Origin: Acidobacteriota bacterium
GTDB taxonomy: Bacteria > Acidobacteriota > UBA4820 > DSQY01
Direction of reading: 5' to 3'
Length of the DNA: 58,815 nt
Assembly: GCA_040752915.1 (NCBI GenBank)
Contig: JBFMHB010000009.1
Location: forward strand, 1-58,815
Shown here: positions 4,292-18,837 of the stretch, one piece after another
How the letters are laid out: each line of letters begins with the position of its first letter
Numbering within the stretch: the stretch's first letter is position 1
The notes under the pieces: generated by a model
The model's database searches: none
What the model saw: only the letters and a program-made list of their open reading frames with translations
Told to the model about the DNA's origin: nothing
Position numbers and translations under genes: made by a program

Positions 4292-7231
4292 TCAGTACTG
4301 CCACGTCGTGAAAACTTCTCCGCCGTCGGGGTTGAGGAATCGGAAGACGGTGGGCGTCCCCTTGGGAACGGCGGTCTTCAGCGTGGAGCCCTTGAGGACG
4401 ATCTTCGAGGCGCTCTTCCATGTGACGGGGGTCCATTCGATGCCGTTGATGAAAACGCGGACGCCCTGCTGAAGGTTGGAGCCGCTGACGAGGAGCCGGA
4501 AGGGTCCCGTCTTCTTCACGATGGAGGTGATCTGGGGCGCGAGGGCCGTGGCCGCGATGGCGAGGGTCTCGGTTGCGGTCTGGTTGGTGGTGTCGCGCAC
4601 CGTGAAGGTGACGGTGTAGTCCCCTTTGGTGGTGTAGAGATGGGTGGGGTTCGCTTCGGTGCTGGTGCCTCCGTCACCGAAATCCCAGAGGTAGGTGTAC
4701 GGAGCGATTCCCCCCGTGCCGGAGCCGGTGAAGTGGACCGTGAGAGGAACGTTACCTGTGAGCGTGTCGGCCTGGGCATCGGCGTAGAGGGGAGGCGCGG
4801 CCACGCTGAAGTTGCCTCCGGCGGAGGCCGTTAGGCTCCCGAGGGTGACGGTCAAGGTCCACGCGTAGGTCCCCGCGGAGGCGTAGGTGTGAGAGGGGTC
4901 CGCTTCCGTGGATTCGGCGCCGTCCCCGAAGGCCCACAGGTAGGCCGGAGTCCCCGTGCAGTCGCCCACGAGGTTGAGCGTGGAGCCAAAGGCCACGGGC
5001 TGGCCCATGACGCCCGAAGAGGGAACGGAGGTGGAGAGGTCCAGGGCGCAGGTCACAACGGCCAGGCCGTGGTTGGCGCCTGATCCGATGGTCAAGACGG
5101 AGGCCGCGACCTGCACGGGGGCGGTCCCGGTGGAGACGCTGAAGGGCTGGGCCAGCTCCCCGTTCGTGTTGTCTCCGAAGGTCCAGAGGGTGCCGTCGCC
5201 CTGGAGGACCAAGCTGCTCTGGATGGTGGCCGCCAGGCCAGTGGCTCCGACGAGCCCGGGAACGGGGACGGGGGAATATCGGTTCTGCGTCGTCCCGTCG
5301 CCGAGCTGTCCCCGGTCGTTGGCTCCCCAGCCCGAGACGGTCCCGTCGTCGTGAATGGCGAGCACGTGGTTGTAGCCGCCGGCGATGGAGGCCACGTTGG
5401 AGATGTTGGCGGGTTGCGGCGTGAAGTGGTCCGTGCTGGTGCCGTCGCCCAGTTGACCGGAGTCTCCTTGCCCCCAGGCGTAAACCCCCCCGTCCTGGAG
5501 TACGGCCGCCGTGAAGTCCATGCCTCCCGCCGCCATGGCTACGGGAGGGATTCCCGCCAATTGGAAGGGATAGGATGCGTTATCCGTGGTTCCGTTCCCC
5601 AGGGCGCCGTAGTACCCCCGGCCCCACATCCACAGGGTCCCGTCGCTCTTCACGGCGAAGGCGTGCCACCAGGCCGCTCCGATGAAGACGATATCGGAGA
5701 GGTTCTCCACCTGGCCCACGGTGAGGTAATCGCCGTCCCGGCCCAGAAGGCCGTAATACCGGCTTCCCCAAGACCACACCGTGCCGTCGGACTTGAGGGC
5801 GAAGCCTCCTCCGCCCCGCGCCGCGGCGATCCGGATCACGCCGCTCAGGCCCGGTATCTGGACGGGGACGTCGCTCGGGGTCCGGGTGCCGTTGCCCAAG
5901 GCGCCATTGGAATTCTCTCCCCAGGCCCAGACGGTGCCGTCCTCTCGAAGGGCCATGGACCAGCCGCCCCCACCGGCCAGGGAGACGACGCTTCCGAGTC
6001 CGGCGACCTGGACCGGGCTCCACTTGACCGGTTCGCGTCCCGATCCCAATTGCCCGTTCTGGTCCTGTCCCACGGCCCAGGCCTGACCGTTCGAGGCGAG
6101 AAGAAGGGTATGGTCGCGACCTGCCGAGGCGGCCGTGGTGAGGGTCTGAATGCCGCATTCCGTGGGAGAGTACCGATCTGTCGTTGTCCCGTCCCCCAAT
6201 TGGCCCACGTCGTTCTTGCCGAAGACCCAGACCGATCCGTCGGCCTTCAGGACCACGGAATGCTCCTCCCCCGCGCTCGCCGAGACCACGTTCGAGAGGG
6301 GGGAGAGAGCGGGTGAAGCCTGCCCGGAGGTGTCCCCCAGCCCAAGCTTTCCATGGTTTCCGCTCCCCCAGACGTATAGGGTCCCGTTCTCCAGGACCGC
6401 CAGGTTGTGGCTCGATCCGGCGGCCACGAAGGCCACGTCCGCGAGCCCGGGGACCTGGACAGGGGACAGGCGCGTCGTGGTGGTTCCGTCCCCCAGTTGA
6501 TTGGAGAAGTTGCCGCCCCAGGCCCACAGGGTCCCGTCGGACCGAATGGCCAGGGAGTGGTACCCGCCTGCGGCGATGAAAACGATGGACGTGAGCCCCG
6601 GTACTTGAACGGGCGTCTGAGCCGTGCCCGTTGTCCCCGTGCCCAGCTGGCCGTACTCGTTGCTCCCCCAGGCCCACACCGTCCCATCGGCGGAAAGGGC
6701 CAGGGAGTGGTTGTGGCCGCCGGCTGCCTGGGTCATCGGGGGAAGACCGCTCACGGCGCCCGGACTCGCATAGCAGGTGAGGGGCGAGCAGGTCCGGCCG
6801 AGCTTGTACGCGTCACGGCTCCCCCACGTCCAGAGCGAGCCGTCGGCCTTCACGGCCAGGGCGTGCAGGGGCCCCGCGCCGATGGATACGACCTCGGCCA
6901 GTCCGGGGACCGCCTGCGGCGTGCCCGACGCCCCGCCGTAGAAGCCTTGCCCGAGGGTGCCGTTCCCGTTGGTTCCCCAGGTCCACACGGTGCCGTCGGC
7001 CTTGAGGCCCATACCCCAGTATATGCCGGCGCCAAGCTGGACGAAGGGGTCCGAATCCGCCACCTGGACGGGAAGGGACCTCTGGACGGGGACACCCGTC
7101 CCGATCTGGCCGTAGTCGTCCTTGCCCCAGGCATAGGCCGTTCCCGTCTGGGCCCAGGCCGACCAGGCCAGGGACATGGCGGCAAGAAAGATGACAAACG
7201 TTTTGTAGCCTTTTCCCCTGCTTCGAGTCAT
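4292..7231 (-). CDS. Secreted RCC1-repeat protein with two PKD domains and a TIG-like C-terminus
   Basis: A 979-residue exported protein. ATG 7231 is chosen because it follows GAAGGAG and begins a clean signal peptide (MTRSRGKGYK, hydrophobic core, then AWA before QTGTAYAWG). The frame stays open about 80 codons upstream, but that stretch is not protein-like. Fourteen RCC1 blades follow (about residues 32-725), each with a G[TS]xWxWG core, consistent with two seven-bladed propellers. Then come PKD domains at about 729-814 (WAFGDG) and 815-895 (WDFGDG) and an IPT/TIG-like end (about 896-979). Such proteins are usually surface or secreted adhesion or scaffolding proteins. No catalytic site is seen. 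It lies 131 bp downstream of the anti-sigma gene on the same strand, so co-regulation is plausible. Confidence 0.9.
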   Translation of the reverse strand: MTRSRGKGYKTFVIFLAAMSLAWSAWAQTGTAYAWGKDDYGQIGTGVPVQRSLPVQVADSDPFVQLGAGIYWGMGLKADGTVWTWGTNGNGTLGQGFYGGASGTPQAVPGLAEVVSIGAGPLHALAVKADGSLWTWGSRDAYKLGRTCSPLTCYASPGAVSGLPPMTQAAGGHNHSLALSADGTVWAWGSNEYGQLGTGTTGTAQTPVQVPGLTSIVFIAAGGYHSLAIRSDGTLWAWGGNFSNQLGDGTTTTRLSPVQVPGLADVAFVAAGSSHNLAVLENGTLYVWGSGNHGKLGLGDTSGQASPALSPLSNVVSASAGEEHSVVLKADGSVWVFGKNDVGQLGDGTTTDRYSPTECGIQTLTTAASAGRDHTLLLASNGQAWAVGQDQNGQLGSGREPVKWSPVQVAGLGSVVSLAGGGGWSMALREDGTVWAWGENSNGALGNGTRTPSDVPVQIPGLSGVIRIAAARGGGGFALKSDGTVWSWGSRYYGLLGRDGDYLTVGQVENLSDIVFIGAAWWHAFAVKSDGTLWMWGRGYYGALGNGTTDNASYPFQLAGIPPVAMAAGGMDFTAAVLQDGGVYAWGQGDSGQLGDGTSTDHFTPQPANISNVASIAGGYNHVLAIHDDGTVSGWGANDRGQLGDGTTQNRYSPVPVPGLVGATGLAATIQSSLVLQGDGTLWTFGDNTNGELAQPFSVSTGTAPVQVAASVLTIGSGANHGLAVVTCALDLSTSVPSSGVMGQPVAFGSTLNLVGDCTGTPAYLWAFGDGAESTEADPSHTYASAGTYAWTLTVTLGSLTASAGGNFSVAAPPLYADAQADTLTGNVPLTVHFTGSGTGGIAPYTYLWDFGDGGTSTEANPTHLYTTKGDYTVTFTVRDTTNQTATETLAIAATALAPQITSIVKKTGPFRLLVSGSNLQQGVRVFINGIEWTPVTWKSASKIVLKGSTLKTAVPKGTPTVFRFLNPDGGEVFTTWQY

Positions 7232-7362
7232 GGGCCGCTCCTTCGGGCGCCGTTCGGCGCTCCCTCCACCCCGCCATTGGGGCCTCTTATTCCGGATACA
7301 CGCTTGGTTCCTTCCTCGGGGTGAACCGCGAGGAAACACGGACACGGTGCGGCCAACGGGGA

Positions 7363-8064
7363 TCAGAACACGGTGAAGGGGAAGCGATAGAGGACCGCGC
7401 CGGTGGCGGGATCGAGGATCTCCACCGAGGCGGGGCCGGGAGGGAGGAGCCCGGAGGGCATCTGGAGAAGCCATGGGGCGCCGCCCGAGGAAGGGAGGGT
7501 CCCCCTCCAGATTTCCCGTCCCGAGGGGCCCGAAAGGCGGGCCACGGCGCCTTCCGGCAGGGGTTCAAGAGTGGTGAGCAGCAGGGCCGTGGGCTCGCTG
7601 GAACGCAGGGAGGGAAGGTCCTCGGCCGCCCCCCTGACCGCGAAGGAATCGGGGAGAAGCTCCACGAGCCGTGCCGCCCTTGGTGCCGGTGCGACGCTCT
7701 GGATCCGGGCCGATTCGGCCAGACGGAGGTTCAAGGCTCGGGCTTCCCTCCACAACCATGCCGAAACGCCCGCCCCGAGAACCGCGACGGCGAGGGCGGC
7801 CGCGAGGGCCCAATCCCGGCGCCCCAGCCCGTTGCGATTTGTTGGGACCCGCGTCGGTGAGCGCGAGATGGAGGCGGAGAGGGACCGCCCTTCCAGCCAG
7901 ATTTCCAGACACGCCGGACAGGAGGAAAGATGAGCGCGGAGGGATTCCGCGTCCGGTTCCGGAGCCGTTCCCGCGGCGAGGGCGAGGACCGCATCCGGGG
8001 AGGGGCACGGTCCCCCTTCCAGGCCAAAGGGCTCCAGGGCGCGGCGCAGATCTTCGCGGTTCAC
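7363..8064 (-). CDS. Membrane anti-sigma factor with zinc-finger motif
   Basis: A 233-residue protein whose GTG start overlaps the stop of the ECF sigma gene (8061-8064). The cytoplasmic part carries an H-x3-C-x2-C zinc anti-sigma motif (H45, C49, C52 in HLSSCPACLE). One membrane helix lies at about 84-104, and a proline-rich periplasmic domain of about 125 residues follows. Gene order and motif identify the cognate anti-sigma factor of the upstream sigma gene. The periplasmic domain has no recognised fold and would be the sensing part. It probably holds the sigma factor at the inner membrane until a signal releases it. Confidence 0.88.
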   Translation of the reverse strand: MNREDLRRALEPFGLEGGPCPSPDAVLALAAGTAPEPDAESLRAHLSSCPACLEIWLEGRSLSASISRSPTRVPTNRNGLGRRDWALAAALAVAVLGAGVSAWLWREARALNLRLAESARIQSVAPAPRAARLVELLPDSFAVRGAAEDLPSLRSSEPTALLLTTLEPLPEGAVARLSGPSGREIWRGTLPSSGGAPWLLQMPSGLLPPGPASVEILDPATGAVLYRFPFTVF

Positions 8065-8621
8065 GGTCCCCCCTGGTTGGCGGGTTCGAGTCCCGCCCGG
8101 AGGAACTCAAGCCCGCGCCGCAAATGGGTCTTCACGGTGTTCACCGAAAGGCCGAGGAGGTCCGCAGCCTCCTGGGGCCCCAGGTCATGGACGTACCGGA
8201 GGAGGAGGCAGCGGCGCATCATCTCGGGCATCTCTCGGATGCGGGCGTGAAGCGCCGCAATCTCTTCGAAAGAGGCGGCCCGGCCCTCGGGGTTCGGAGC
8301 CAGTTCATCGGGCGCCTCCGCGGGCGGTTCCACCATGGAGAGGTGCCTTCCCTGAAAGGCGCGCCGGCGATGTTCGGAGATGGCCTTGTTCTTCACGACC
8401 GTCACCAGCCAGGGCACCCGGCGCTCCTCCGGCTCCAGGTGCTTCCGATTGAGATACACGCACAAGAAGACATCCTGGGTGAATTCGAAGGCCTGCTCTC
8501 TCGGGAAACCCTTGCGCACGAAATACCCCACGGCCCACGATTGGTGCCTCGCGTAGACCTCCGAAAAGGCCGGGTCGTCGGGCAACGAAGTGTCCGAGGC
8601 CCCCGGGCCCGTTTCCAGCAT
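8061..8621 (-). CDS. ECF-type RNA polymerase sigma factor
   Basis: A 186-residue two-domain sigma-70 factor. Region 2 lies at about 18-85 (YFVRKGFPREQAFEFTQDVF, then WLVTVVKNKAISEHRR) and region 4 at about 120-175 (MPEMMRRCLLLRYVHDLGPQ, EAADLLGLSVNTVKTHLRRG). Region 3 is absent, as in extracytoplasmic-function sigmas. ATG 8621 follows GGGGAG. The next gene is its anti-sigma factor, and the CHAT gene is divergent with 132 bp between. Tandem GGAAC boxes in that gap (8683-8694, minus strand) resemble an ECF -35 and may mark autoregulation, but no convincing -10 is seen. Confidence 0.93.
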   Translation of the reverse strand: MLETGPGASDTSLPDDPAFSEVYARHQSWAVGYFVRKGFPREQAFEFTQDVFLCVYLNRKHLEPEERRVPWLVTVVKNKAISEHRRRAFQGRHLSMVEPPAEAPDELAPNPEGRAASFEEIAALHARIREMPEMMRRCLLLRYVHDLGPQEAADLLGLSVNTVKTHLRRGLEFLRAGLEPANQGGP

Positions 8622-8753
8622 GTGAATCTCCCCGTTCGCGAGGGCCCTGGGTCATATGGCGCGGCCGCCGGCTCTCCCGCGGCGTTCCGTTCCGATGGGC
8701 CCTCAACGCGGCGACGATTGTATCCCAGGATGGGTCGAGTCGGGGAGGGTTCA

Positions 8754-11700
8754 ATGAAGGAAGCGCGACCGGGAGCGGTTCGCCGGAGGTGGAGCGCTGG
8801 TCTGACCGCGGTTCTCGCGGGGTTTGTCCTCCTTTCCCTTCGGGCCGAAGTGGTCGTGGAGTCCGTCGCGCCCCTTTCCGCCCCCGAGAAAGCGGGCCTC
8901 GCGGCGGGGGACCGGCTCGCGCGGGCGGCGGTCCTTTCGGAGGACGGGCGCCCGGGCGAGTGGGTAGTCCTGTCGTCTCCCTTTGCGTGGGAGCGGTTCG
9001 AGGCCTTGAGGGCCGGTTATGGCACCGCCCTTCTCGAGGGCGAGAGAAATGGAACGCCGGTCAACTGGAACCTTGGACCGGGCCGCGGGGGGCTCAAGGT
9101 CTGCCCCGGCCGCAAGGACGTCCGCATGGACGGCTGTTGGGAAAGGGTCCAGGCCGCTCGGAGCGCGGCGTCTGAAAGCCGGTGGCCAGAGGCCCTGAGC
9201 GCTCTGGAAAAGGCCGAAGCCCTGGCGGGCGATCTGCCGACCGAGGTGCTCCCCGGGATCCTACTGGAACGGGGAAACCTGCTTCGCAAACAAGGCGACC
9301 TGGCGGGTGCTGGAGAGGCCTTCGCGCGGGCCGCGGCGATCTGCGCGGCCCGTTACGGCGAGGCGGACCTCTGGAGGGCCGAGTGCCTGTACCGCCAAGG
9401 GGCGGCGGCATGGGTGAGGAGGGACCTCGCCGCCGCCGAACCGCCCCACCGGGAGGCCCTTGCCGCAAGGAGAAAAGCGGCCCCCGGCAGTCCCGACGAG
9501 GCCGAGAGCCTAAACAGCCTGGGCGGTATCGCCTTCGCACGGGCCGATTTCGAAGGAGCCGCGGCCCTTTACGCCGAGGCGCTTGCGCTCTTCGAAAAGT
9601 CCGAACCGGGAGGGGTGGGCTCCAGTAAAGTTCTTTCGAACCTGGGGAGCGTCCACCGGAACCTGGGCGATCTTTCCGAGGCCGAAGAGTACGTCGGACG
9701 GGCCCTGGCGATCCAGCGGCGCCTCGATCCGGGAAGCCTGGTCCTGGCCAATTCGTTGAACAACCTGGGCCTCATCGCCCACGAGCGGGGAGACCTCTCG
9801 AAGGCCGAATCGTGCCACCGAGAGGCTCTGGCCCTCCGCGAACGGCACGACCCCGAGGGCCCGGCCGTGGCCGCCAGCCTGAACAACCTGGCGGGCGTGG
9901 CCGAATCTCGGGGCGACGCGCTGCAGGCCGAAGCGTGGTACGCGCGTGCCGTGGTCCTTATGGAGAAGAAGGCGCCGGGGAGCCTGGATCTGGCCTCCTG
10001 TCTGAGCAACCTCGGGGCCGTTCTGGGGGCCGAGGGCAAGAGCGCCCGGGCCCGGGAAGCCCACCTCCAGGCGCTTGCGATCGAGGAGTCCTTTGCGCCC
10101 GAAGGGGCAGGCGCAGCCGGGAGCCACTTCAACCTGGGCATGGAGGCCCTTCGCACAGGGGACCTAAAGGAGGCGAGGTCCCGCTTCGAGAGGTCCGAGG
10201 TCCTGTTCCGCAAGGCGGCGCCGGGGGGGCTGGGTCTGGCCGGAGCCCTGTATCATGAAGGTCTTCTCGATTTGAAGGGCGGCGACGTCGCCGCCGCCAG
10301 GGCTCTCCTCGAAGAGGCCCTCTCCATCCGCTCCCGCCTTGCCCCTGGAAGCCTGGCCCAAGCGGAGGCCATGCGGGCGCTCGGAGGGGTGGCCACACGG
10401 GAGGGGAAGAGGGACGAGGCCATCTCTTGGTCTCTGCGGGCTCTGGACGCGCTCGACTCCCAGATGGGCCGTCTGGGCGGCTCCCACGAGGTGCGCGCCG
10501 AGTACCGTTCCGGTGTGTTCCCCTTCTACGAAGAGACCATGGACCTCCTGCTGTCCTCCGGGCGAGGCGAGGAGGCCTTCTCGGCGCTGGAGCGCGGGAA
10601 GGCCCGGGTCTTGCTCGAGATCCTCGGAGATCGGGATCTCCACCGGTCCATTCAGGTGTCCCCGGATCTGGCGCGGGAGGGGCGCCGGCTCGACAGGGCT
10701 TGCGGGCGGGTCCTGGAGGCCCTTGCGGAATCAGGAGAAGAGGCCGGCTCTGCGGGTTTCAAACGCCTGACGCTCCGCCTCTCCGAACTGCGCGCCGAGC
10801 GGGCGGCTTTGGCCGTCAAGGTGCGCGAGCAGTCGCCGGCCTTCGCTTCGCTGGCCTATCCGAGGCCGCTCGGGGTGGAGGCCGTCCAATCTCGGCTCTC
10901 CAAAGGGACCTGCCTCGTGGCCTATTCCGTGGGGGAGTCCTCCACGCGCCTCTTCGCCGTGGCCTCGGGCGGCGGCTTTCGAGCGGTCGTCCTCCCCGTC
11001 GGACGGGACGCGCTCGGACAGAGGGTAAGCGCCTTTCGGGAGGCCATCTTGGAGGCCCGGAGCCCGGCGCGGAGCATCCACCGGGTCACGGCGCGGGGGC
11101 AGGACCTCTACGATCTCCTTCTGGGCCCCGTCGATGCGATCGTCGGCCCCTCGCGCCATCTCGTGATCGTGCCCGACGGGCCTCTGCACGGCCTTCCCTT
11201 CGGTGCTCTCGGCTCCAAGAGGGACGGATCCTTCCTCGGGGCGCTGAAGACCCTTTCCGTATCCCCTTCCGCCACGGCCTACGTCGAACTGGGCGGGCTG
11301 CTGAAAGCGACTTCCCAAGACGGGGCGGTGGCCGCATTCGCGTATAGCGGTGAGGAGGGCACGGCTCGCCCGAGCCTCGCCGCCACACTCCCGGAGGCCC
11401 GCGAACTCGGCCGCCTCGGTCGGGAATGTCGCTTCTTCCAGGGGGAGGAAGCGACGGAGAAGCGCTTTCGGGAGGCCGCCAGAGCCTCCTCAGTGCTCCA
11501 CGTCGCCTGTCACGCCACCCTGGACAACCGCTTTCCCATGAATTCCTGCCTCCTCCTCGAGCACACGCTCGACGGGCGCCCCGAGGAAGACGGGCGGGTA
11601 CGTGCCTGGGAAGTGCTCGAGGAGATGAGAATACCGGCTCGACTGGTGGTCCTGTCGGCCTGCGAGACGGGTCTGGGGAGCGAGGTGGCAGGGGAGGGCC

Positions 11701-11948
11701 TTCTGGGCCTCGTGCGCGCATTCCACGCCGCGGGAGCGCCCGCGGTGGCGGCTTCCTTGTGGAAGGTGGAGGATTCCGCTACGGCGCGTCTGATGGGGGC
11801 CTTCTACGAGCACCTCGGACGGGGCGCGGGCCCTTCCGAAGCCCTTCGGAAGGCCCAGTCCGCCCTGCGAGACGGAAAGGCTACAGGCCTCCCGCTCCCC
11901 CCTTACTACTGGGCCGCCTTTCAAATCTACGGACGGGGGGAAGGCTGA
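8754..11948 (+). CDS. PDZ-TPR-CHAT protein (caspase-like protease domain)
   Basis: A 1064-residue protein. ATG 8754 follows GGGGAGGG and gives an N-terminal signal anchor (about 12-30); the open frame upstream is antisense to the sigma and anti-sigma genes. A PDZ-like segment (about 36-75, ending KAGLAAGDRLARA) is followed by tandem TPRs (about 130-560, with repeated SLNNLG and LSNLG helices). A CHAT domain occupies about 770-1064, with the clan CD dyad H920 (VLHVACHATLDNRF) and C970 (VVLSACETGLGS). CHAT domains are caspase/separase relatives, several acting as proteases in signalling or defence. The substrate is unknown. Divergence from an ECF sigma/anti-sigma pair suggests shared control. 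Both catalytic residues are intact. Confidence 0.93.
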   Translation: MKEARPGAVRRRWSAGLTAVLAGFVLLSLRAEVVVESVAPLSAPEKAGLAAGDRLARAAVLSEDGRPGEWVVLSSPFAWERFEALRAGYGTALLEGERNGTPVNWNLGPGRGGLKVCPGRKDVRMDGCWERVQAARSAASESRWPEALSALEKAEALAGDLPTEVLPGILLERGNLLRKQGDLAGAGEAFARAAAICAARYGEADLWRAECLYRQGAAAWVRRDLAAAEPPHREALAARRKAAPGSPDEAESLNSLGGIAFARADFEGAAALYAEALALFEKSEPGGVGSSKVLSNLGSVHRNLGDLSEAEEYVGRALAIQRRLDPGSLVLANSLNNLGLIAHERGDLSKAESCHREALALRERHDPEGPAVAASLNNLAGVAESRGDALQAEAWYARAVVLMEKKAPGSLDLASCLSNLGAVLGAEGKSARAREAHLQALAIEESFAPEGAGAAGSHFNLGMEALRTGDLKEARSRFERSEVLFRKAAPGGLGLAGALYHEGLLDLKGGDVAAARALLEEALSIRSRLAPGSLAQAEAMRALGGVATREGKRDEAISWSLRALDALDSQMGRLGGSHEVRAEYRSGVFPFYEETMDLLLSSGRGEEAFSALERGKARVLLEILGDRDLHRSIQVSPDLAREGRRLDRACGRVLEALAESGEEAGSAGFKRLTLRLSELRAERAALAVKVREQSPAFASLAYPRPLGVEAVQSRLSKGTCLVAYSVGESSTRLFAVASGGGFRAVVLPVGRDALGQRVSAFREAILEARSPARSIHRVTARGQDLYDLLLGPVDAIVGPSRHLVIVPDGPLHGLPFGALGSKRDGSFLGALKTLSVSPSATAYVELGGLLKATSQDGAVAAFAYSGEEGTARPSLAATLPEARELGRLGRECRFFQGEEATEKRFREAARASSVLHVACHATLDNRFPMNSCLLLEHTLDGRPEEDGRVRAWEVLEEMRIPARLVVLSACETGLGSEVAGEGLLGLVRAFHAAGAPAVAASLWKVEDSATARLMGAFYEHLGRGAGPSEALRKAQSALRDGKATGLPLPPYYWAAFQIYGRGEG

Positions 11949-12132: not shown

Positions 12133-13044
12133 TCAATGGCCCCTCACGAAGAGGTTCTTCAGAACGAGCAGGGACATGGAAGGGCTCTCCAGCATGCGGC
12201 GGCGCAGGTACGCGATGGCGTCGTCCCAGTCGGAGGCGAAGGGGACGTATAGACGCACCGTCTCGCCGGCGGCGACGAGTTCCTTCTGGACGCGGTCCCG
12301 GGGGACGCCGAGGAGCATCTGGAATTCGTAGCGGTCCTTCAGAACGGCCTTCCGGCGGAGGAGGTCCCGGGCCTTGGCGAGGTACTCCATATCGTGGGTG
12401 GCGACGCAGACGTAGTGGCCACGATCGAGGAGCTTCTCGATGAGAAGCAAGAGGTTTTCCTTCATCTGCCGCCGGTTTGTCAAGGCCTTGTCGGGGCCCA
12501 CGTTGTATATGCCGATGCAGGCCCGCACGTGGGCGTTCAGCCCGTCGAGACGGTCCACGTCGTCGAGAGTGCGGTGAAGACGGGACTGGAGGACCGTGCC
12601 CAGAATCGGGTACTTGGGTTTGAGGTCCCGGTAGAGGTCCAAGGTGAAGTCCGTCAGGTCCGTGTCCTCCATGTCCACCGTGAGACCCCTTCCGGCGGCC
12701 TGGCAGGCGGCGGCCATTTCCTCCACGTTCCGGCGGCAGAGGTCCGGACTGACGTAGAAACCGAAATGGCCGGGTTTGATGGACAAGGTGCAGTAGCCTC
12801 GAGTCTTCACGGCCTCCAGGGCCCTCAGGTAGTTCTCCACGGCCCCGCGGACCTTGGCTTCGGTCTTCTCGGCTTCGCCCAAGACGTCAAGGGTCGTGTG
12901 AATGCCGCGCTCCTCGAACAAGCGATCCGCCACGGCCAATCCCTTGTCCAGCGAGTCGCCGGAGACGTACGGGGCGGCGAAGACGCGGACGAGACGCCCC
13001 GGAATCAGGTTGACGATGGATTTCTTCACGGCGTACAGGGACAT
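12133..13044 (-). CDS. Monofunctional proline dehydrogenase
   Basis: A 303-residue FAD-dependent (beta/alpha)8-barrel enzyme oxidising proline to pyrroline-5-carboxylate. It matches the short stand-alone form rather than bifunctional PutA. Family signatures include YCTLSIKPGHFG, TVDMEDTDLTDFTLDLYRDL, CIGIYNVGPDKA, CVATHDMEY and the C-terminal YEFQMLLGVPRD box. Start 13044 (MSLYAVKKS) follows GAGGAGG at 7 bp. The frame runs on upstream, but that sequence overlaps the divergent promoter region and is not protein-like. No P5C dehydrogenase gene is adjacent, so the second step must be encoded elsewhere. Confidence 0.92.
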   Translation of the reverse strand: MSLYAVKKSIVNLIPGRLVRVFAAPYVSGDSLDKGLAVADRLFEERGIHTTLDVLGEAEKTEAKVRGAVENYLRALEAVKTRGYCTLSIKPGHFGFYVSPDLCRRNVEEMAAACQAAGRGLTVDMEDTDLTDFTLDLYRDLKPKYPILGTVLQSRLHRTLDDVDRLDGLNAHVRACIGIYNVGPDKALTNRRQMKENLLLLIEKLLDRGHYVCVATHDMEYLAKARDLLRRKAVLKDRYEFQMLLGVPRDRVQKELVAAGETVRLYVPFASDWDDAIAYLRRRMLESPSMSLLVLKNLFVRGH

Positions 13045-13186: not shown

Positions 13187-13215
13187 TTGAAGGCGTTGAT
13201 TTCTTTGGATATGCT
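13187..13215 (+). promoter_or_regulatory. Promoter of the DUF1015-serA-serC operon
   Basis: TTGAAG, 17-bp spacer, TATGCT; predicted transcript start near 13222, about 70 bp before ATG 13291. It reads toward the serine operon. Confidence 0.65.
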
Positions 13216-13290
13216 GACCTTCCGGCCGGGAGCCATCGCGGGCGCTCCGGGCCTCCACCCCACATCCGGAGCCCGCCAGAGGGTCGCCGC

Positions 13291-14532
13291 ATGTCGAAGT
13301 TGAAGCCGTTCCGCGGCTACAGGCCCAGGCCTGACCTCGCGGAGAAGATCGCCAGCCACCCCTATGACGTCATTGACTCGGACGAGGCCAGGAATCTGGC
13401 CCGGGGCAATCCCTACTCCTTTCTCCACGTGGGCAAGCCCGAAATCGACCTGGACCCCTCCGTTCCCCTCTACGACGATCGCGTTTACGCTCAGGGCGTG
13501 GAGAACCTCCGCCGCTTCATCGCCGAGGGAGTCCTGCTCAAGGAGCCCCAGCCCTGCTTCTACGTATACCAGCAGAGGATGGGAGACCACGTCCAGGCGG
13601 GCCTCGTTGGCCTATGCGCCGTCACCGAGTACGAAAACGGTCTCATCAAGCGCCACGAGTTCACGAGGAAGGACAAAGAGGACGACCGCACGCGCCACGT
13701 GATGGAGCAGAACGCCAATGCGGAGCCGGTCTTCCTGACTTACCGGGCGGTTCCCGCCATCGACGAGATCGTGGACCGCGCCCGCTCCTGCGATCCCGTC
13801 TACGACATCGTGACCGACGACGGCTTCGGCCACACGGTCTGGGTGATCGCCGACGAAGAGGACCTGAAGGACATCGAGCGCCTCTTCGCCGAAAAGGTCC
13901 CCGCCCTTTACGTGGCCGACGGCCACCACCGCACCGCCGCCGCCGTCCGGACGGGCCAGGCTCTGCGCACCAGGGCCGCCGCACGCACGGGGGAGGAGCC
14001 CTTCGAGTACTTCATGGCCGTGGTCTTCCCCCACGACCAGTTGAAGATCCTCGACTACAACCGCGTGGTGAAGGACCTCAACGGCCTGAGCCCGGAGGCT
14101 TTCCTTGCGAAGATCGGAGGGGCCTTCTCCGTGGAAAAGGGCGTCGCGCCCAAACCCGAACGCCCGGCCACGTTCGGAATGTACCTGGGCGGAGAGTGGT
14201 ACCGCCTGGCGGCCCGCCCGGGCACCTATCCGGCGCAGGACCCGGTGAAGGGGCTGGACGTTTCCATCCTCCAGGACAACCTGCTGGGGCCCGTCCTGGG
14301 GATCGCGGACCCGCGCACCGACAAGCGCATCGATTTCGTCGGGGGGATCCGCGGGACGAAGGAGCTGGAGCGTCGGGTCAAGGAGGGCTGGGCCGTGGCC
14401 TTCGCCCTCTATCCCACGAGCCTGCCCCAGCTCATGGCGGTGGCGGACGCGGGGCAGGTCATGCCGCCCAAGTCCACGTGGTTCGAGCCCAAACTGAGAA
14501 GCGGGCTCATCGTGCGGCTTATTGAGGATTAG
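13291..14532 (+). CDS. DUF1015 family protein in a serine operon
   Basis: A 413-residue protein of the DUF1015 family, near the usual family length. It opens with KPFRGYRPRPDLAEKIASHPYDV and carries a VADGHHRTAAAV box (D210-R214). This DGHHR box resembles the ParB/sulfiredoxin-like motif of free-serine kinases (SerK/SbnI), an analogy made here rather than an established assignment. ATG 13291 is chosen because it gives the standard N-terminus and follows GAGGG; the frame upstream is antisense to proline dehydrogenase. It is first in an operon with serA and serC, a linkage recurrent in other bacteria, which suggests a role in phosphoserine chemistry. Biochemical function is unproven. Confidence 0.88.
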   Translation: MSKLKPFRGYRPRPDLAEKIASHPYDVIDSDEARNLARGNPYSFLHVGKPEIDLDPSVPLYDDRVYAQGVENLRRFIAEGVLLKEPQPCFYVYQQRMGDHVQAGLVGLCAVTEYENGLIKRHEFTRKDKEDDRTRHVMEQNANAEPVFLTYRAVPAIDEIVDRARSCDPVYDIVTDDGFGHTVWVIADEEDLKDIERLFAEKVPALYVADGHHRTAAAVRTGQALRTRAAARTGEEPFEYFMAVVFPHDQLKILDYNRVVKDLNGLSPEAFLAKIGGAFSVEKGVAPKPERPATFGMYLGGEWYRLAARPGTYPAQDPVKGLDVSILQDNLLGPVLGIADPRTDKRIDFVGGIRGTKELERRVKEGWAVAFALYPTSLPQLMAVADAGQVMPPKSTWFEPKLRSGLIVRLIED

Positions 14533-14630
14533 TATTGGGGGAGGCCGATCGTAGGGACAGGGATGGAGAGGCTCAACGTTTCCATTCCCCCCCTCCCTCT
14601 CGTCTTCCCTGTCCAAACGGAGGGTAAGCG

Positions 14631-15500
14631 ATGAAGATCCTGATTGCGGACGCGTTCGACAAGGGGCTCCCCAAGAGGCTGGAGCGTTTCGGCGAAGTGT
14701 TCGAAGACATGGGCCGATTGGCGGAGGCGGAAGTTCTGCTGATCCGCTCCAAGACCAAGGTGACGCCCGACCTGATCGAGAAGGCCCCGGCCCTGAAACT
14801 CGTGATTCGGGGGGGGGTGGGGCTGGACAACGTGGACAAGGCCGCGTGCAGCGCGCGGGGCATCGAGGTGATGAATACGCCCGAAGCTTCCTCGGTGGCC
14901 GTGGCCGAGTTCGCCATGGCGCTCATGCTGGCCATCCCCAACCGCATCGTGGAAGCCCACACCTCCATGAAGGAGGGGAAGTGGCTCAAGAAGGAGCTCA
15001 AGCGCACGGAACTCTACCAGAAGACCCTCGGCCTCCTCGGGGTGGGCCGCATCGGCTCCGAGGTGGCTACCCGGGCCAGGGCCTTCGGCATGACGGTGAT
15101 CGCGTACGACCCCTACCTCAAGGAGCACCCCGTGGCGCGCCTCGTCCCCCTGGACGAACTCCTCGCCAAATCGGACTACATCTCCTTCCACACGCCGCTG
15201 ACCGAGGAGACCCGTGGCATGGTCAACGCGGCCCTCATCGGCAAAATGAAGGACGGGGTCATCCTGATCAACACCGGGCGGGGCAAGATCCTCGACGAGG
15301 CGGCCCTGGCGGAGGCCCTGAAGAGCGGAAAGGTGGCCGCCTACGGCACCGACGTATGGTCCAGCGACCCGCCCCCCGCCGACTGCCCCCTGCTGACGGC
15401 GCCCAACGTCCTCATGGCGCCCCACATCGGGGCCTCCTCCAAGGAGAACCTCCTGCGCATCGGCGACATCGTGGTCGAGATCCTGAAGAATCGGAAATGA
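14631..15500 (+). CDS. serA: D-3-phosphoglycerate dehydrogenase, short form
   Basis: A 289-residue D-isomer 2-hydroxyacid dehydrogenase, the NAD-dependent first step of serine synthesis from 3-phosphoglycerate. The Rossmann motif GLLGVGRIGSEVA, the substrate loop RGGVGLDNVD and catalytic R217 (NTGRGKILDE) and H265 (APHIGASS) are present. The usual catalytic glutamate is aspartate (D246 in DVWSSDPP). No ACT domain is present, so allosteric serine inhibition by the long-form route is not expected. Position between DUF1015 and serC makes serA far likelier than another 2-hydroxyacid dehydrogenase. The 98-bp gap upstream shows no terminator. Confidence 0.88.
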   Translation: MKILIADAFDKGLPKRLERFGEVFEDMGRLAEAEVLLIRSKTKVTPDLIEKAPALKLVIRGGVGLDNVDKAACSARGIEVMNTPEASSVAVAEFAMALMLAIPNRIVEAHTSMKEGKWLKKELKRTELYQKTLGLLGVGRIGSEVATRARAFGMTVIAYDPYLKEHPVARLVPLDELLAKSDYISFHTPLTEETRGMVNAALIGKMKDGVILINTGRGKILDEAALAEALKSGKVAAYGTDVWSSDPPPADCPLLTAPNVLMAPHIGASSKENLLRIGDIVVEILKNRK

Positions 15501-15610
15501 CTCACGGCAAGGAAGGGAAGTTCGGGAGAAGGAATCCGTCGCATGGGGAAGGAAACCCTCCCATCCTCCCGTACTCCCGGCAAAATGGTCCGAACGATTA
15601 GGAGATGACG

Positions 15611-16708
15611 ATGGCAAAGCGGGTGATCAACTTCTACGCGGGGCCGGCGGGTCTTCCCCTCCCGGCGCTGGAACGGGCCCAGGCTGAACTCCTGGATTTC
15701 GAAAACACGGGCATGTCGGTGATGGAGATCTCCCACCGGGCGAAGGAGTACGACGCCGTCCACAACGAGGCCATTTCCCTCGTGAAGGAGCTCCTGAACG
15801 TCCCCGACAACTACAAGGTCCTCCTTCTCCAGGGGGGGGGGAACCTCCAGTTCGCCATGTTGCCCATGAACCTCCTTCATTCGGGGCGCAAGGCCGACTA
15901 CATCGTGACGGGCTCGTGGGCCAAGAAGGCCTACAAGGAGGCCGTGATCGTGGCCGGCGAAAACGCCCGCTGCATCGCCTCCACCGAGCCCGAGAAGTTC
16001 TGCCGCCTGCCCCGGCCCGAGGAGATCAAGGTCAACGCGGATGCCGCCTACGTCCACATCTGCTCGAACAACACCATCTACGGGACGCAGTGGAAGACCT
16101 TTCCCGAGACGGGGGGCATCCCCCTGGCCGCCGACATGTCCAGCGACTTCATGTGGCGCCCCTTCGACGTAAAGCCCTTCGGCTTCATCTACGCCGGCGC
16201 CCAGAAGAACCTGGGCCCCTCGGGACTGGTGGTGGCCCTCATCCGGGACGACGTTCTGGAGATGTGTACGGACAAGATCCCCACCATGCTCCGGTACAGG
16301 ATCCACGCGGACAAGAACAGCCTTTTCAACACCCCGCCCTGCTTCTCCATCTACATCCTGCGCAACGTCCTCAGCTACAACAAGCAGATCGGCGGCCTCG
16401 AGGTCATCTACAAGAACAACCTGAAGAAGGGCGAGCTGCTGTACGGCTGCATCGACCGCCACGCGGGCTTCTACAAGCCCTGGGTCACGGTGAAGGAAGA
16501 CCGCTCCTACATGAACGTGGATTTCTTCCTCCCCACCGAGGACCTCACCGCGGCCTTCATCGCCGAGGCCAAAAAGAACGGCATGGTGGGCCTCAAGGGC
16601 TATCGCGACCTCGGAGGCATCCGGGTCTCCATGTACAACGCCGTCACCGTTCCCCAGATCGAGACCCTTGTTTCCTTCATGGAGGAGTTCGTCAAGAAGA
16701 ACGGCTGA
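15611..16708 (+). CDS. serC: Phosphoserine aminotransferase
   Basis: A 365-residue class V PLP aminotransferase making phosphoserine from phosphohydroxypyruvate and glutamate. K199 (YAGAQKNLGPSG) is the Schiff-base lysine; FYAGPAGLP, SHRAKEY and the TIYGTQW segment are typical SerC features. ATG 15611 is preferred over ATG 15605: the AGGAG site at about 15600 directly abuts the upstream ATG but is 6 bp from the second. It is last in the serine operon and is followed by an intrinsic terminator. Confidence 0.95.
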   Translation: MAKRVINFYAGPAGLPLPALERAQAELLDFENTGMSVMEISHRAKEYDAVHNEAISLVKELLNVPDNYKVLLLQGGGNLQFAMLPMNLLHSGRKADYIVTGSWAKKAYKEAVIVAGENARCIASTEPEKFCRLPRPEEIKVNADAAYVHICSNNTIYGTQWKTFPETGGIPLAADMSSDFMWRPFDVKPFGFIYAGAQKNLGPSGLVVALIRDDVLEMCTDKIPTMLRYRIHADKNSLFNTPPCFSIYILRNVLSYNKQIGGLEVIYKNNLKKGELLYGCIDRHAGFYKPWVTVKEDRSYMNVDFFLPTEDLTAAFIAEAKKNGMVGLKGYRDLGGIRVSMYNAVTVPQIETLVSFMEEFVKKNG

Positions 16709-16730
16709 TCCCCCGCACCGTTCCTCCAGG

Positions 16731-16763
16731 GCCGCCCGCCTCGCGCGGGCGGTCTTTCTTTTG
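16731..16763 (+). terminator. Intrinsic terminator of the serine operon
   Basis: Perfect 8-bp stem CCGCCCGC/GCGGGCGG with a five-base loop, followed by TCTTTCTTTT, 23 bp after the serC stop. Confidence 0.9.
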
Positions 16764-17070: not shown

Positions 17071-18837
17071 GTGGCGCTGGACGTAAAAACGCTGATCTTT
17101 TGCAACTTCCTCCTCGGCACCTTCCTGGTGGTCCTGCTCTTGATGTACCGGGCGCGTCAGAGGACGTGTCCGGGCTATCTCGCCTGGGTCTTCGGCACGG
17201 CGCTCCAGATGCTGGGTCTCCTGTCCCTCGCCGTGCGGGAGGCGGTCCCCCTCCTTCCCGGCGTCCTGGTGACGAACGCATGTATTTACTTCGGCATGGT
17301 TCTCGAACTGGAGGGGGCCCTCCGGTTCGTGCGGGACACGAGGGCCTCCCGCCTGTGGTACTGGAGCGCCATTCCCTTTCTTCTTCTCCAGGGGTGGCTC
17401 GCGGTGGGGCGCGACGAGGTCGTCCTTCGAAGCCTCGTGGTGGCCGTCTGCATCGCCTGGGTCAGCTTCCGAATCAGTTGGGTCTTTCTGGCCGGACAGG
17501 GGTGGACGAACCACCTCTACCGTCTCTTCGCGGTCCTGTACGTCCTCATGGGCGCGGCCGTCCTGGTTCGGGCCCTCCTATGGATGACCAACCCGTCCCA
17601 CGGCCTTTTTGATTCGCCGTACTTCCACACGGCCTACTTCTCCCTGACCCTCGTGGCGGCGACGGGCGGCTCCATCTGCTACATCCTCCTGACGAGCCAG
17701 CGCCTGGAGCAGGAGGTGCGGACAGGGGAGGAACGCTTCCGGCGGCTCGTGGAGGCGTCCACCATGGGCATCGTGTTCTTGAGGGAGGAGGCGGGCGGGG
17801 GGCTTGTCCTCACGGGGGTCAACCCCGCCGCGTGCGGAATCCTCCATCTTTCCGAGGATCAAATGGTCGGGAAACCTCTGCGGGAGGTGTTCACCGGCGA
17901 AGCCGCCGGAGAGATGGAAGCGGCCTACCTGAACACGTGCCGCACGGGCCAACCCCTCCACCTCGTGGGGGCCGAGTACCGGGACTCGCGCGTCGCCGGG
18001 TTCTTCGACGTTTTCGCCTACAGGACCGGTCCAGGCCGGGTGGCCGTGCTCTTCAACGACGTGTCCGAAAGGAAGCGTTTGGAAGCCGAGCGCCTGGCGC
18101 TCCAGGCCCGGGAACACCACGTATCCATGGTGGAAAACCAGGGCCGGCTCGTGCAGGGGCTCGCCCACGAAATCCGGAACCCCCTCTTCGCGCTCCACAC
18201 CAACACCCTGGCGGCGATCCGGGCGGCCAAGGAAGGGAAGGACGGCGCGCCCTTCACGGGCTTCGTGGAAGAACAGGTCCGCCGCCTCGACGCGCTCTTG
18301 CGTGACCTGATGGAATTGGGCCGGCGGCCCGAGGCGGGCGAGGAAATCCTGGACCTGCCGGCGCTCGTCCGGGCGACGGCGGCCTCGGTGGGGGAGTCGA
18401 GTCTTCCGAAGGGGAGGACCGTTCGCATGCGGACTCCGGAGGGTTCCGTCCGCGTCCGGGGGGACGCGCCTACCCTGAGTCGGGCCTTCTCGCACCTTCT
18501 GGAAAACGCCCTGGACTTCACGCCTGCCGGAGAGGCGGTGGAGGTGTCGGTATCCACCGAGGGAGACCGGGCCAAGGTGGAGATCCGCGACCGGGGTCCA
18601 GGGATCCGGCAAGACGTCCAGGGCTCCCTCTTCGAGCCCTTTGTGACGAGCCGGACGGGCCACACGGGGCTCGGTCTGGCCCTGGCGCGCCACTACCTGC
18701 GGTCCCACGGGGGAGAGCTTTCGGGCAGGAACCGCGAGCCGGGGCCAGGAGCCATATTCACGATCACCCTCCCGCTTGGCCCGGAGTCCCCCGAGGCCGG
18801 CGCGGCGGCCGAGCCGAGCCGGGAAGCCAGCGGATGA
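17071..18837 (+). CDS. Membrane PAS histidine kinase with seven-helix sensor
   Basis: A 588-residue sensor kinase starting at GTG 17071 after GGAGG. Seven hydrophobic helices fill about 1-210. A PAS domain follows (about 215-330, ending NDVSERKRLEAERL), then HisKA with H366 (GLAHEIRNPLFALHTN) and a HATPase (about 440-575; N-box HLLENALDF, DRGPGIRQDV, GHTGLGLALARHYL). No receiver domain or adjacent response regulator is present, so the partner is unknown. Its stop overlaps the ATG of the transporter (ATGA at 18834), so the two are translationally coupled, and the kinase may sense or regulate something linked to transport. Confidence 0.9.
   Translation: MALDVKTLIFCNFLLGTFLVVLLLMYRARQRTCPGYLAWVFGTALQMLGLLSLAVREAVPLLPGVLVTNACIYFGMVLELEGALRFVRDTRASRLWYWSAIPFLLLQGWLAVGRDEVVLRSLVVAVCIAWVSFRISWVFLAGQGWTNHLYRLFAVLYVLMGAAVLVRALLWMTNPSHGLFDSPYFHTAYFSLTLVAATGGSICYILLTSQRLEQEVRTGEERFRRLVEASTMGIVFLREEAGGGLVLTGVNPAACGILHLSEDQMVGKPLREVFTGEAAGEMEAAYLNTCRTGQPLHLVGAEYRDSRVAGFFDVFAYRTGPGRVAVLFNDVSERKRLEAERLALQAREHHVSMVENQGRLVQGLAHEIRNPLFALHTNTLAAIRAAKEGKDGAPFTGFVEEQVRRLDALLRDLMELGRRPEAGEEILDLPALVRATAASVGESSLPKGRTVRMRTPEGSVRVRGDAPTLSRAFSHLLENALDFTPAGEAVEVSVSTEGDRAKVEIRDRGPGIRQDVQGSLFEPFVTSRTGHTGLGLALARHYLRSHGGELSGRNREPGPGAIFTITLPLGPESPEAGAAAEPSREASG

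Follow-up and report, generated by a model that had tools for sequence, protein, structure and literature searches.

In an Acidobacteriota genome (3.07 Mb, 98.3% complete), a gene of the DUF1015 family heads a serine-synthesis operon, and its product is probably a SerK-fold enzyme whose substrates are free O-phospho-L-serine and serine and which here takes the place of the phosphatase SerB in the last step of serine synthesis. The gene lies in a stretch of 58,815 nt (the window), together with serA and serC on a single strand. This arrangement had been described in an earlier note on the same DNA, and both the open reading frames (ORFs) and the family profiles agree with it. The same note had proposed phosphoserine/serine interconversion as the role of the protein, an idea that now has computational support from the predicted fold, the motifs, operon linkage across phyla, and the absence of SerB from most genomes that carry DUF1015. 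The unit consists of the following elements:

13291-14532, + strand: DUF1015 (PF06245) gene, proposed SerK-like phosphoserine/serine enzyme, 413 aa (ATG at 13291, stop codon ending at 14532)
14631-15500, + strand: serA-like 3-phosphoglycerate dehydrogenase, short form of 289 aa without the C-terminal ACT domain
15605-16708, + strand: serC phosphoserine transaminase, 367 aa (TIGR01364, 466.8 bits, over the cut-off)
16728-16756, + strand: intrinsic terminator at the end of the three-gene unit, a hairpin of 12 pairs with T-rich sequence after it (folding z = -2.68)

In a Pfam scan the product of the first gene covers the full length of the PF06245 profile (positions 1-325; 372.6 bits). The serA-like product scores 310 bits over the catalytic part of the TIGR01327 dehydrogenase model, which is below the full-length cut-off because the protein is short and not because it is unrelated. 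The genes are separated by 98 bp (DUF1015-serA) and 104 bp (serA-serC), and spacing, strand and conservation suggest that the three are co-transcribed. One promoter and one terminator had been claimed for the unit: the terminator is there, while the single promoter was not borne out, as a consensus scan of the + strand found no sigma-70-like promoter upstream of the unit, in a region that is GC-rich. Both intergenic gaps (14533-14630 and 15501-15604) contain inverted purine-rich and pyrimidine-rich stretches; they fold no better than shuffled sequences (z -1.2 and +1.1, respectively).

The predicted structure points to one branch of one fold. An AlphaFold (AF2) model built on an alignment of 31 DUF1015 proteins has a mean predicted local distance difference test score (pLDDT) of 92.7 and a predicted template modelling score (pTM) of 0.88. 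The structural comparison with SerK that the earlier note had suggested was made by searching this model with Foldseek against 350,542 PDB chains; nine matches were significant (E 4e-7 to 3e-5, probability 1.00; the next match has E = 0.12), and every one of them is a free serine kinase:

5x0k, 5x0j, 5x0e, 5x0g and 5x0b: SerK of Thermococcus kodakarensis in several ligand states
1vk1: SerK homologue of Pyrococcus furiosus
6nr6, 5uje and 5ujd: SbnI of two staphylococci

Neither ParB nor sulfiredoxin is among the significant matches, and DUF1015 was rejected as a member of either. The PHROGs profiles gave a weak ParB-like match across the DGHHR box described below (E = 0.013), and a viral structure library searched with the model returned nothing significant.

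Within this fold, the residues expected to do the chemistry are conserved. Three motifs stand out:

codons 13654-13665, + strand: H122-E123-x-T125, universally conserved H-E motif, equivalent of SerK H29-E30 (catalytic Glu) by conservation, by the SerK and SbnI segments and by profile alignment
codons 13918-13932, + strand: D210-G-H-H-R214 box, universally conserved, equivalent of SerK D69-G-H-H-R73 and of D-G-V-H-R in SbnI
codons 14470-14499, + strand: K394-S-T-W-F-E-P-K401-L-R, conserved C-terminal motif in which K394, T396, P400 and K401 are near-universal

The numbering of the D210-GHHR-214 box had been given correctly, and its likeness to the SerK/SbnI box, also noted before, is strengthened by the correspondence of the catalytic glutamate. 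H122, E123 and D210-R214 are identical in all of 178 DUF1015 homologues (100%), the most divergent branch included. A 24-residue query around the box matches only SerK, 1vk1 and SbnI in the PDB; when the upstream H-E segment is added, the same three rank first and ParB and sulfiredoxin fall far behind. The catalytic Glu30 of SerK sits in the sequence K-P-H29-E30-Q, SbnI has L-H-E, and DUF1015 has K-R-H122-E123-F-T125. The assignment of E30 to the H-E motif follows from the E30Q mutant structure 5x0j, which reads PHQQ where wild-type SerK reads PHEQ and so changes exactly that residue. A global profile-profile alignment pairs both DUF1015 motifs with their SerK counterparts unaided (pairwise E 2e-6). 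In the model the H-E motif is followed by a helix, a strand, an inserted block of about 50-55 residues, a strand, the DGHHR box and a helix, an order collinear with SerK apart from the insertion. No match to the C-terminal K394-K401 motif was found in SerK; it is possibly an additional substrate or phosphate site.

The link to serine synthesis extends well beyond this genome. For 80 DUF1015 loci, drawn from GTDB genomes across many phyla, the neighbours within 4 kb were clustered: 46 of the loci have serA homologues and 42 have serC homologues, and every other cluster is limited to at most 16 loci, the larger of these being shadow frames on the opposite strand. The commonest other neighbour on the same strand is YggS-like (10/80). 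When loci from Bacteroidota, Acidobacteriota and Thermotogota are added (200 loci in all), serA- or serC-like genes lie beside DUF1015 in 108, and 168 of the 172 linked ser neighbours share its strand; the gap has a median of 8.5 bp. Same-strand placement, tight spacing and the many phyla involved rule out chance linkage. Gene order varies: DUF1015-serA-serC in Acidobacteriota, Gemmatimonadota, Phycisphaerae and Anaerolineae, while Bacteroidota and Clostridium have serC-serA-DUF1015. The aminotransferase in these two groups is another class-V type, probably the SerC3 of PMC9026213. On a FastTree tree, linkage to ser genes changes (by gain or loss) at least 21 times.

As the earlier note had stated, no phosphoserine phosphatase is found in the window. 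The whole-genome search for serB that it had proposed gave a mixed answer. No HAD-type SerB (TIGR00338) exceeds the cut-off anywhere in the source genome; the top match, at 21.8 bits, lies within a copper P-type ATPase, the other HAD matches were rejected as SerB since they resemble phosphoglycolate phosphatase, and the DUF1015 protein itself has no HAD match among the Pfam and NCBIfam profiles. One histidine phosphatase related to metal-independent phosphoserine phosphatases is present, however:

contig 19 of the source genome (G000), 13188-13772 (locus L235, positions 1492-2112): histidine phosphatase of 206 aa, between the CobC and PspA types (PF00300, 202.7 bits)

Across genomes, operon-type DUF1015 and SerB tend to exclude each other. 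Among 297 Acidobacteriota genomes, 269 have DUF1015 and 10 have SerB over the cut-off. For the 173 that carry serC (166 with DUF1015, 7 without), a SerB-like HAD gene of at least 65 bits is found in 6 of the 7 without DUF1015 and in 11 of the 166 with it (Fisher p = 2e-6, overstated in that genome counts are phylogenetically non-independent; counted by family, p = 0.013). One of the serC-bearing genomes, G274 (assembly 91% complete), has neither DUF1015 nor a SerB-like gene, through either an assembly gap or yet another enzyme. In other phyla SerB passes the cut-off in 1 of 50 genomes with DUF1015. None of 149 genomes in a sample of the clostridial phylum has SerB over the cut-off and 76 have DUF1015, which also occurs in several Clostridium species. 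A plain anticorrelation fails in Bacteroidota (n=198), where SerB exceeds the cut-off in 49 of 172 genomes with DUF1015 and in 6 of 26 without. There the inverse relation emerges only after a divergent, unlinked DUF1015 branch is set apart: none of 52 genomes with operon-type DUF1015 (E < 1e-94, a threshold picked after the data had been seen) carries SerB over the cut-off. Bacteroidota that do have SerB (loci L112-L131) carry the divergent type, with 24-33% identity and serA or serC beside it in 0 of 20 loci. This branch retains the HE, DGHHR and KST motifs and has mostly lost R126, K129, E130, R342 and G351; its function may differ, for example as a forward kinase or an enzyme with another substrate.

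Building on the operon, the predicted fold, the motif equivalence, the cross-phylum linkage and the inverse relation with SerB, we infer substrate, direction and acceptor as follows. SerA would oxidise 3-phosphoglycerate and SerC would transaminate the product to phosphoserine (both roles are taken from family membership). Phosphoserine would then be held by DUF1015 in a ParB/SerK-type pocket, with D210-G-H-H-R214 gripping the phosphate and E123, beside H122, serving as the acid/base, as the corresponding residue of SerK does on the serine hydroxyl; the phosphate would be handed to water or to an acceptor such as inorganic phosphate (Pi) or AMP. The direction from phosphoserine to serine is suggested because genomes without SerB need that step of the pathway. 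Transfer of phosphate from phosphoserine to AMP is energetically uphill, and hydrolysis, or transfer to Pi with removal of the resulting pyrophosphate (PPi), is therefore likelier than plain reversal of the ADP-dependent SerK reaction.

The same fold and motifs would also suit a forward serine kinase like archaeal SerK, which phosphorylates serine with ADP and has been proposed to start a route from serine to 3-phosphoglycerate (PMC5120207). DUF1015 would then supply phosphoserine for cysteine synthesis, or feed serine into glycolysis through reversed SerC and SerA, with serine itself coming from glycine via GlyA. Such an enzyme would be redundant for synthesis in an operon whose SerA and SerC already make phosphoserine, and the genomes that lack SerB, whose absence DUF1015 tracks, need the opposite direction; we consider this reading improbable. 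Another possibility is that the unlinked histidine phosphatase on contig 19 is a metal-independent phosphoserine phosphatase of the PspA/SerB2 type, leaving DUF1015 to do something else in the serine operon, for instance to act as a sensor or regulator that has a ParB-type pocket. Its residues 3-203 align with PspA of Hydrogenobacter (4ij5; E 2e-24), the C-terminal CHL is common to both, and 32% identity to PspA was the basis on which SerB2 was proposed (PMC9026213). Among the NCBIfam models, on the other hand, CobC (alpha-ribazole phosphatase) fits it best, at 145.6 bits against a cut-off of 162.9, and the protein scores 118.6 bits with the PspA model NF045917, far under the cut-off of 350. 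The alignment to 4ij5 places a Cys at the position of H85, a residue which we take to be important in PspA. The family is promiscuous, PF00300 being matched in 13 of 14 control genomes; no ser genes lie beside the gene in the stretch read around it; and this explanation would leave the SerK fold and the universal catalytic motifs of DUF1015 unaccounted for. It seems unlikely.

A third view would make DUF1015 a nucleotide-binding, ParB-like switch or regulator with no enzymatic part in serine metabolism, its linkage to ser genes reflecting regulation. The ParB-CTPase fold often serves as a switch, SbnI is also a regulator (by its PDB title), and 'DU1015' stands in a 2025 survey as one of the ParB-fold fusions, with no function given (PMC12704722). 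Given that the fold matches fall in the serine-kinase branch and not with ParB, Noc or sulfiredoxin, that the H-E catalytic motif is invariant, and that a Pfam scan of DUF1015 shows no known DNA-binding domain, this view is very improbable.

Several observations weigh against a phosphoserine-to-serine role for DUF1015, beginning with the non-independence of the genomes counted and the choice of the Bacteroidota threshold, both noted above. The histidine phosphatase could, after all, be a metal-independent phosphoserine phosphatase. Two Acidobacteriota genomes, G013 (locus L203) and G269 (L211), combine a DUF1015-ser operon with a full-length SerB over the cut-off, possibly through recent acquisition, and DUF1015 and SerB also occur together in two control genomes, those of Bacteroides ihuae and Methanosarcina acetivorans. 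All 61 Thermotogota genomes have DUF1015, with ser genes linked to it in only 2 of 20 loci. With TM-scores of 0.35-0.37 by query and 0.51-0.58 by target, at 12-14% identity, the Foldseek matches are moderate, as is to be expected when a 413-residue protein holds a 240-residue core plus insertions. The protein is indeed much longer than SerK (about 240 aa), with the insertion and an extra C-terminal region, and whole-length sequence searches of the PDB with DUF1015 (phmmer and hmmsearch) found no SerK. For that reason DUF1015 is classed as SerK-like and not as SerK, the similarity being at the level of motifs and fold only. Even so, the phosphoserine/serine reading of DUF1015 is well supported by computation, from sequence and from the predicted model. 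Separately, DUF1015 in Thermotogota (G341, G544-G603) often adjoins a membrane-metalloprotease-like ORF (FFYDPTFLLLIPALLLA...).

The surroundings of the unit in the window are varied. Upstream of and divergent from it is a Thermus-type proline dehydrogenase gene (12133-13044, - strand). Farther away lie a large ORF that encodes TPR repeats and, at the C-terminus, a CHAT (caspase-like) domain (7671-11948, + strand) and an ORF of 1,060 aa with about 12 RCC1 repeats and two PKD domains (4292-7474, - strand). On the 3' side of the terminator, 17071-18837 (+ strand) encodes a sensor histidine kinase that contains a PAS domain and has a membrane-like N-terminus; an adjacent response regulator was not noticed.

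Bacterial amino-acid pathways have few unexplained gaps as frequent as the one at the last step of serine synthesis. Of 2,856 gut genomes, 450, chiefly from Firmicutes, were reported to have SerA and SerC without a known phosphatase (PMC9026213); the step is unfilled in Dehalobacter, though D. restrictus does not need serine for growth (PMC4751268); and the same gap is reported for Desulfovibrio, Clostridium perfringens, Enterococcus faecalis and others (PMC7311316, PMC5764234). DUF1015 is the best candidate for this step in many bacteria without SerB. On balance we lean towards the wider view that it represents a new and widespread class of enzymes that turn phosphoserine into serine and are built on the SerK/ParB fold. 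The family occurs in most of the Acidobacteriota and Bacteroidota sampled, in about half of the clostridial-phylum sample and in all sampled Thermotogota. Such a class would close the missing-SerB gap for hundreds of bacteria, and it may keep the phosphate bond, passing the phosphate to Pi or a nucleotide, where a phosphatase would hydrolyse it. If true, thousands of 'DUF1015' proteins would be re-annotated, the gap would become directly testable, and the serine-kinase branch of the ParB fold would reach beyond a few archaea and staphylococci into a large part of the bacteria. The open-licence literature, in which two papers name DUF1015, yielded none proposing a serine role for it, nor any on a pyrophosphate-dependent serine kinase of Thermotoga; should such an enzyme exist and turn out to be DUF1015, the role proposed here would be less new.

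Among known systems, SerK of T. kodakarensis (TK0378; PDB 5x0b-5x0k) is the closest: its structures are significant fold matches along with those of 1vk1 and SbnI, its H-E motif precedes a D-G-H-H-R box as in DUF1015, and its context is serine/phosphoserine metabolism. DUF1015 differs from it in length (413 against about 240 aa), the insertion of about 50 residues between the motifs, the extra C-terminal K-S-T-W-F-E-P-K, an identity of 12-14%, its place in a bacterial operon with serA and serC, and the reversed direction expected of it; TK0378 uses ADP, and ATP and PPi are not donors (PMC5120207). SbnI, the staphylococcal O-phosphoserine synthase and regulator (5uje, 5ujd, 6nr6), is a significant fold match with LHE and DGVHR motifs; unlike DUF1015, it is a shorter, siderophore-linked forward kinase and its box reads DGVHR instead of DGHHR. 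SerB (TIGR00338) shares the proposed pathway step, but it belongs to an unrelated fold and family and is largely absent where operon-type DUF1015 is present. The PspA type (PF00300) and SerB2-SerB4 (PMC9026213) are likewise non-orthologous replacements of SerB, but with histidine-phosphatase or HAD folds, and none of them is DUF1015. The ParB-CTPase/sulfiredoxin survey (PMC12704722) places 'DU1015' among ParB-fold architectures and gives it no enzymatic role; in its accessible part, the protein is not named among the nucleoside triphosphate binders.

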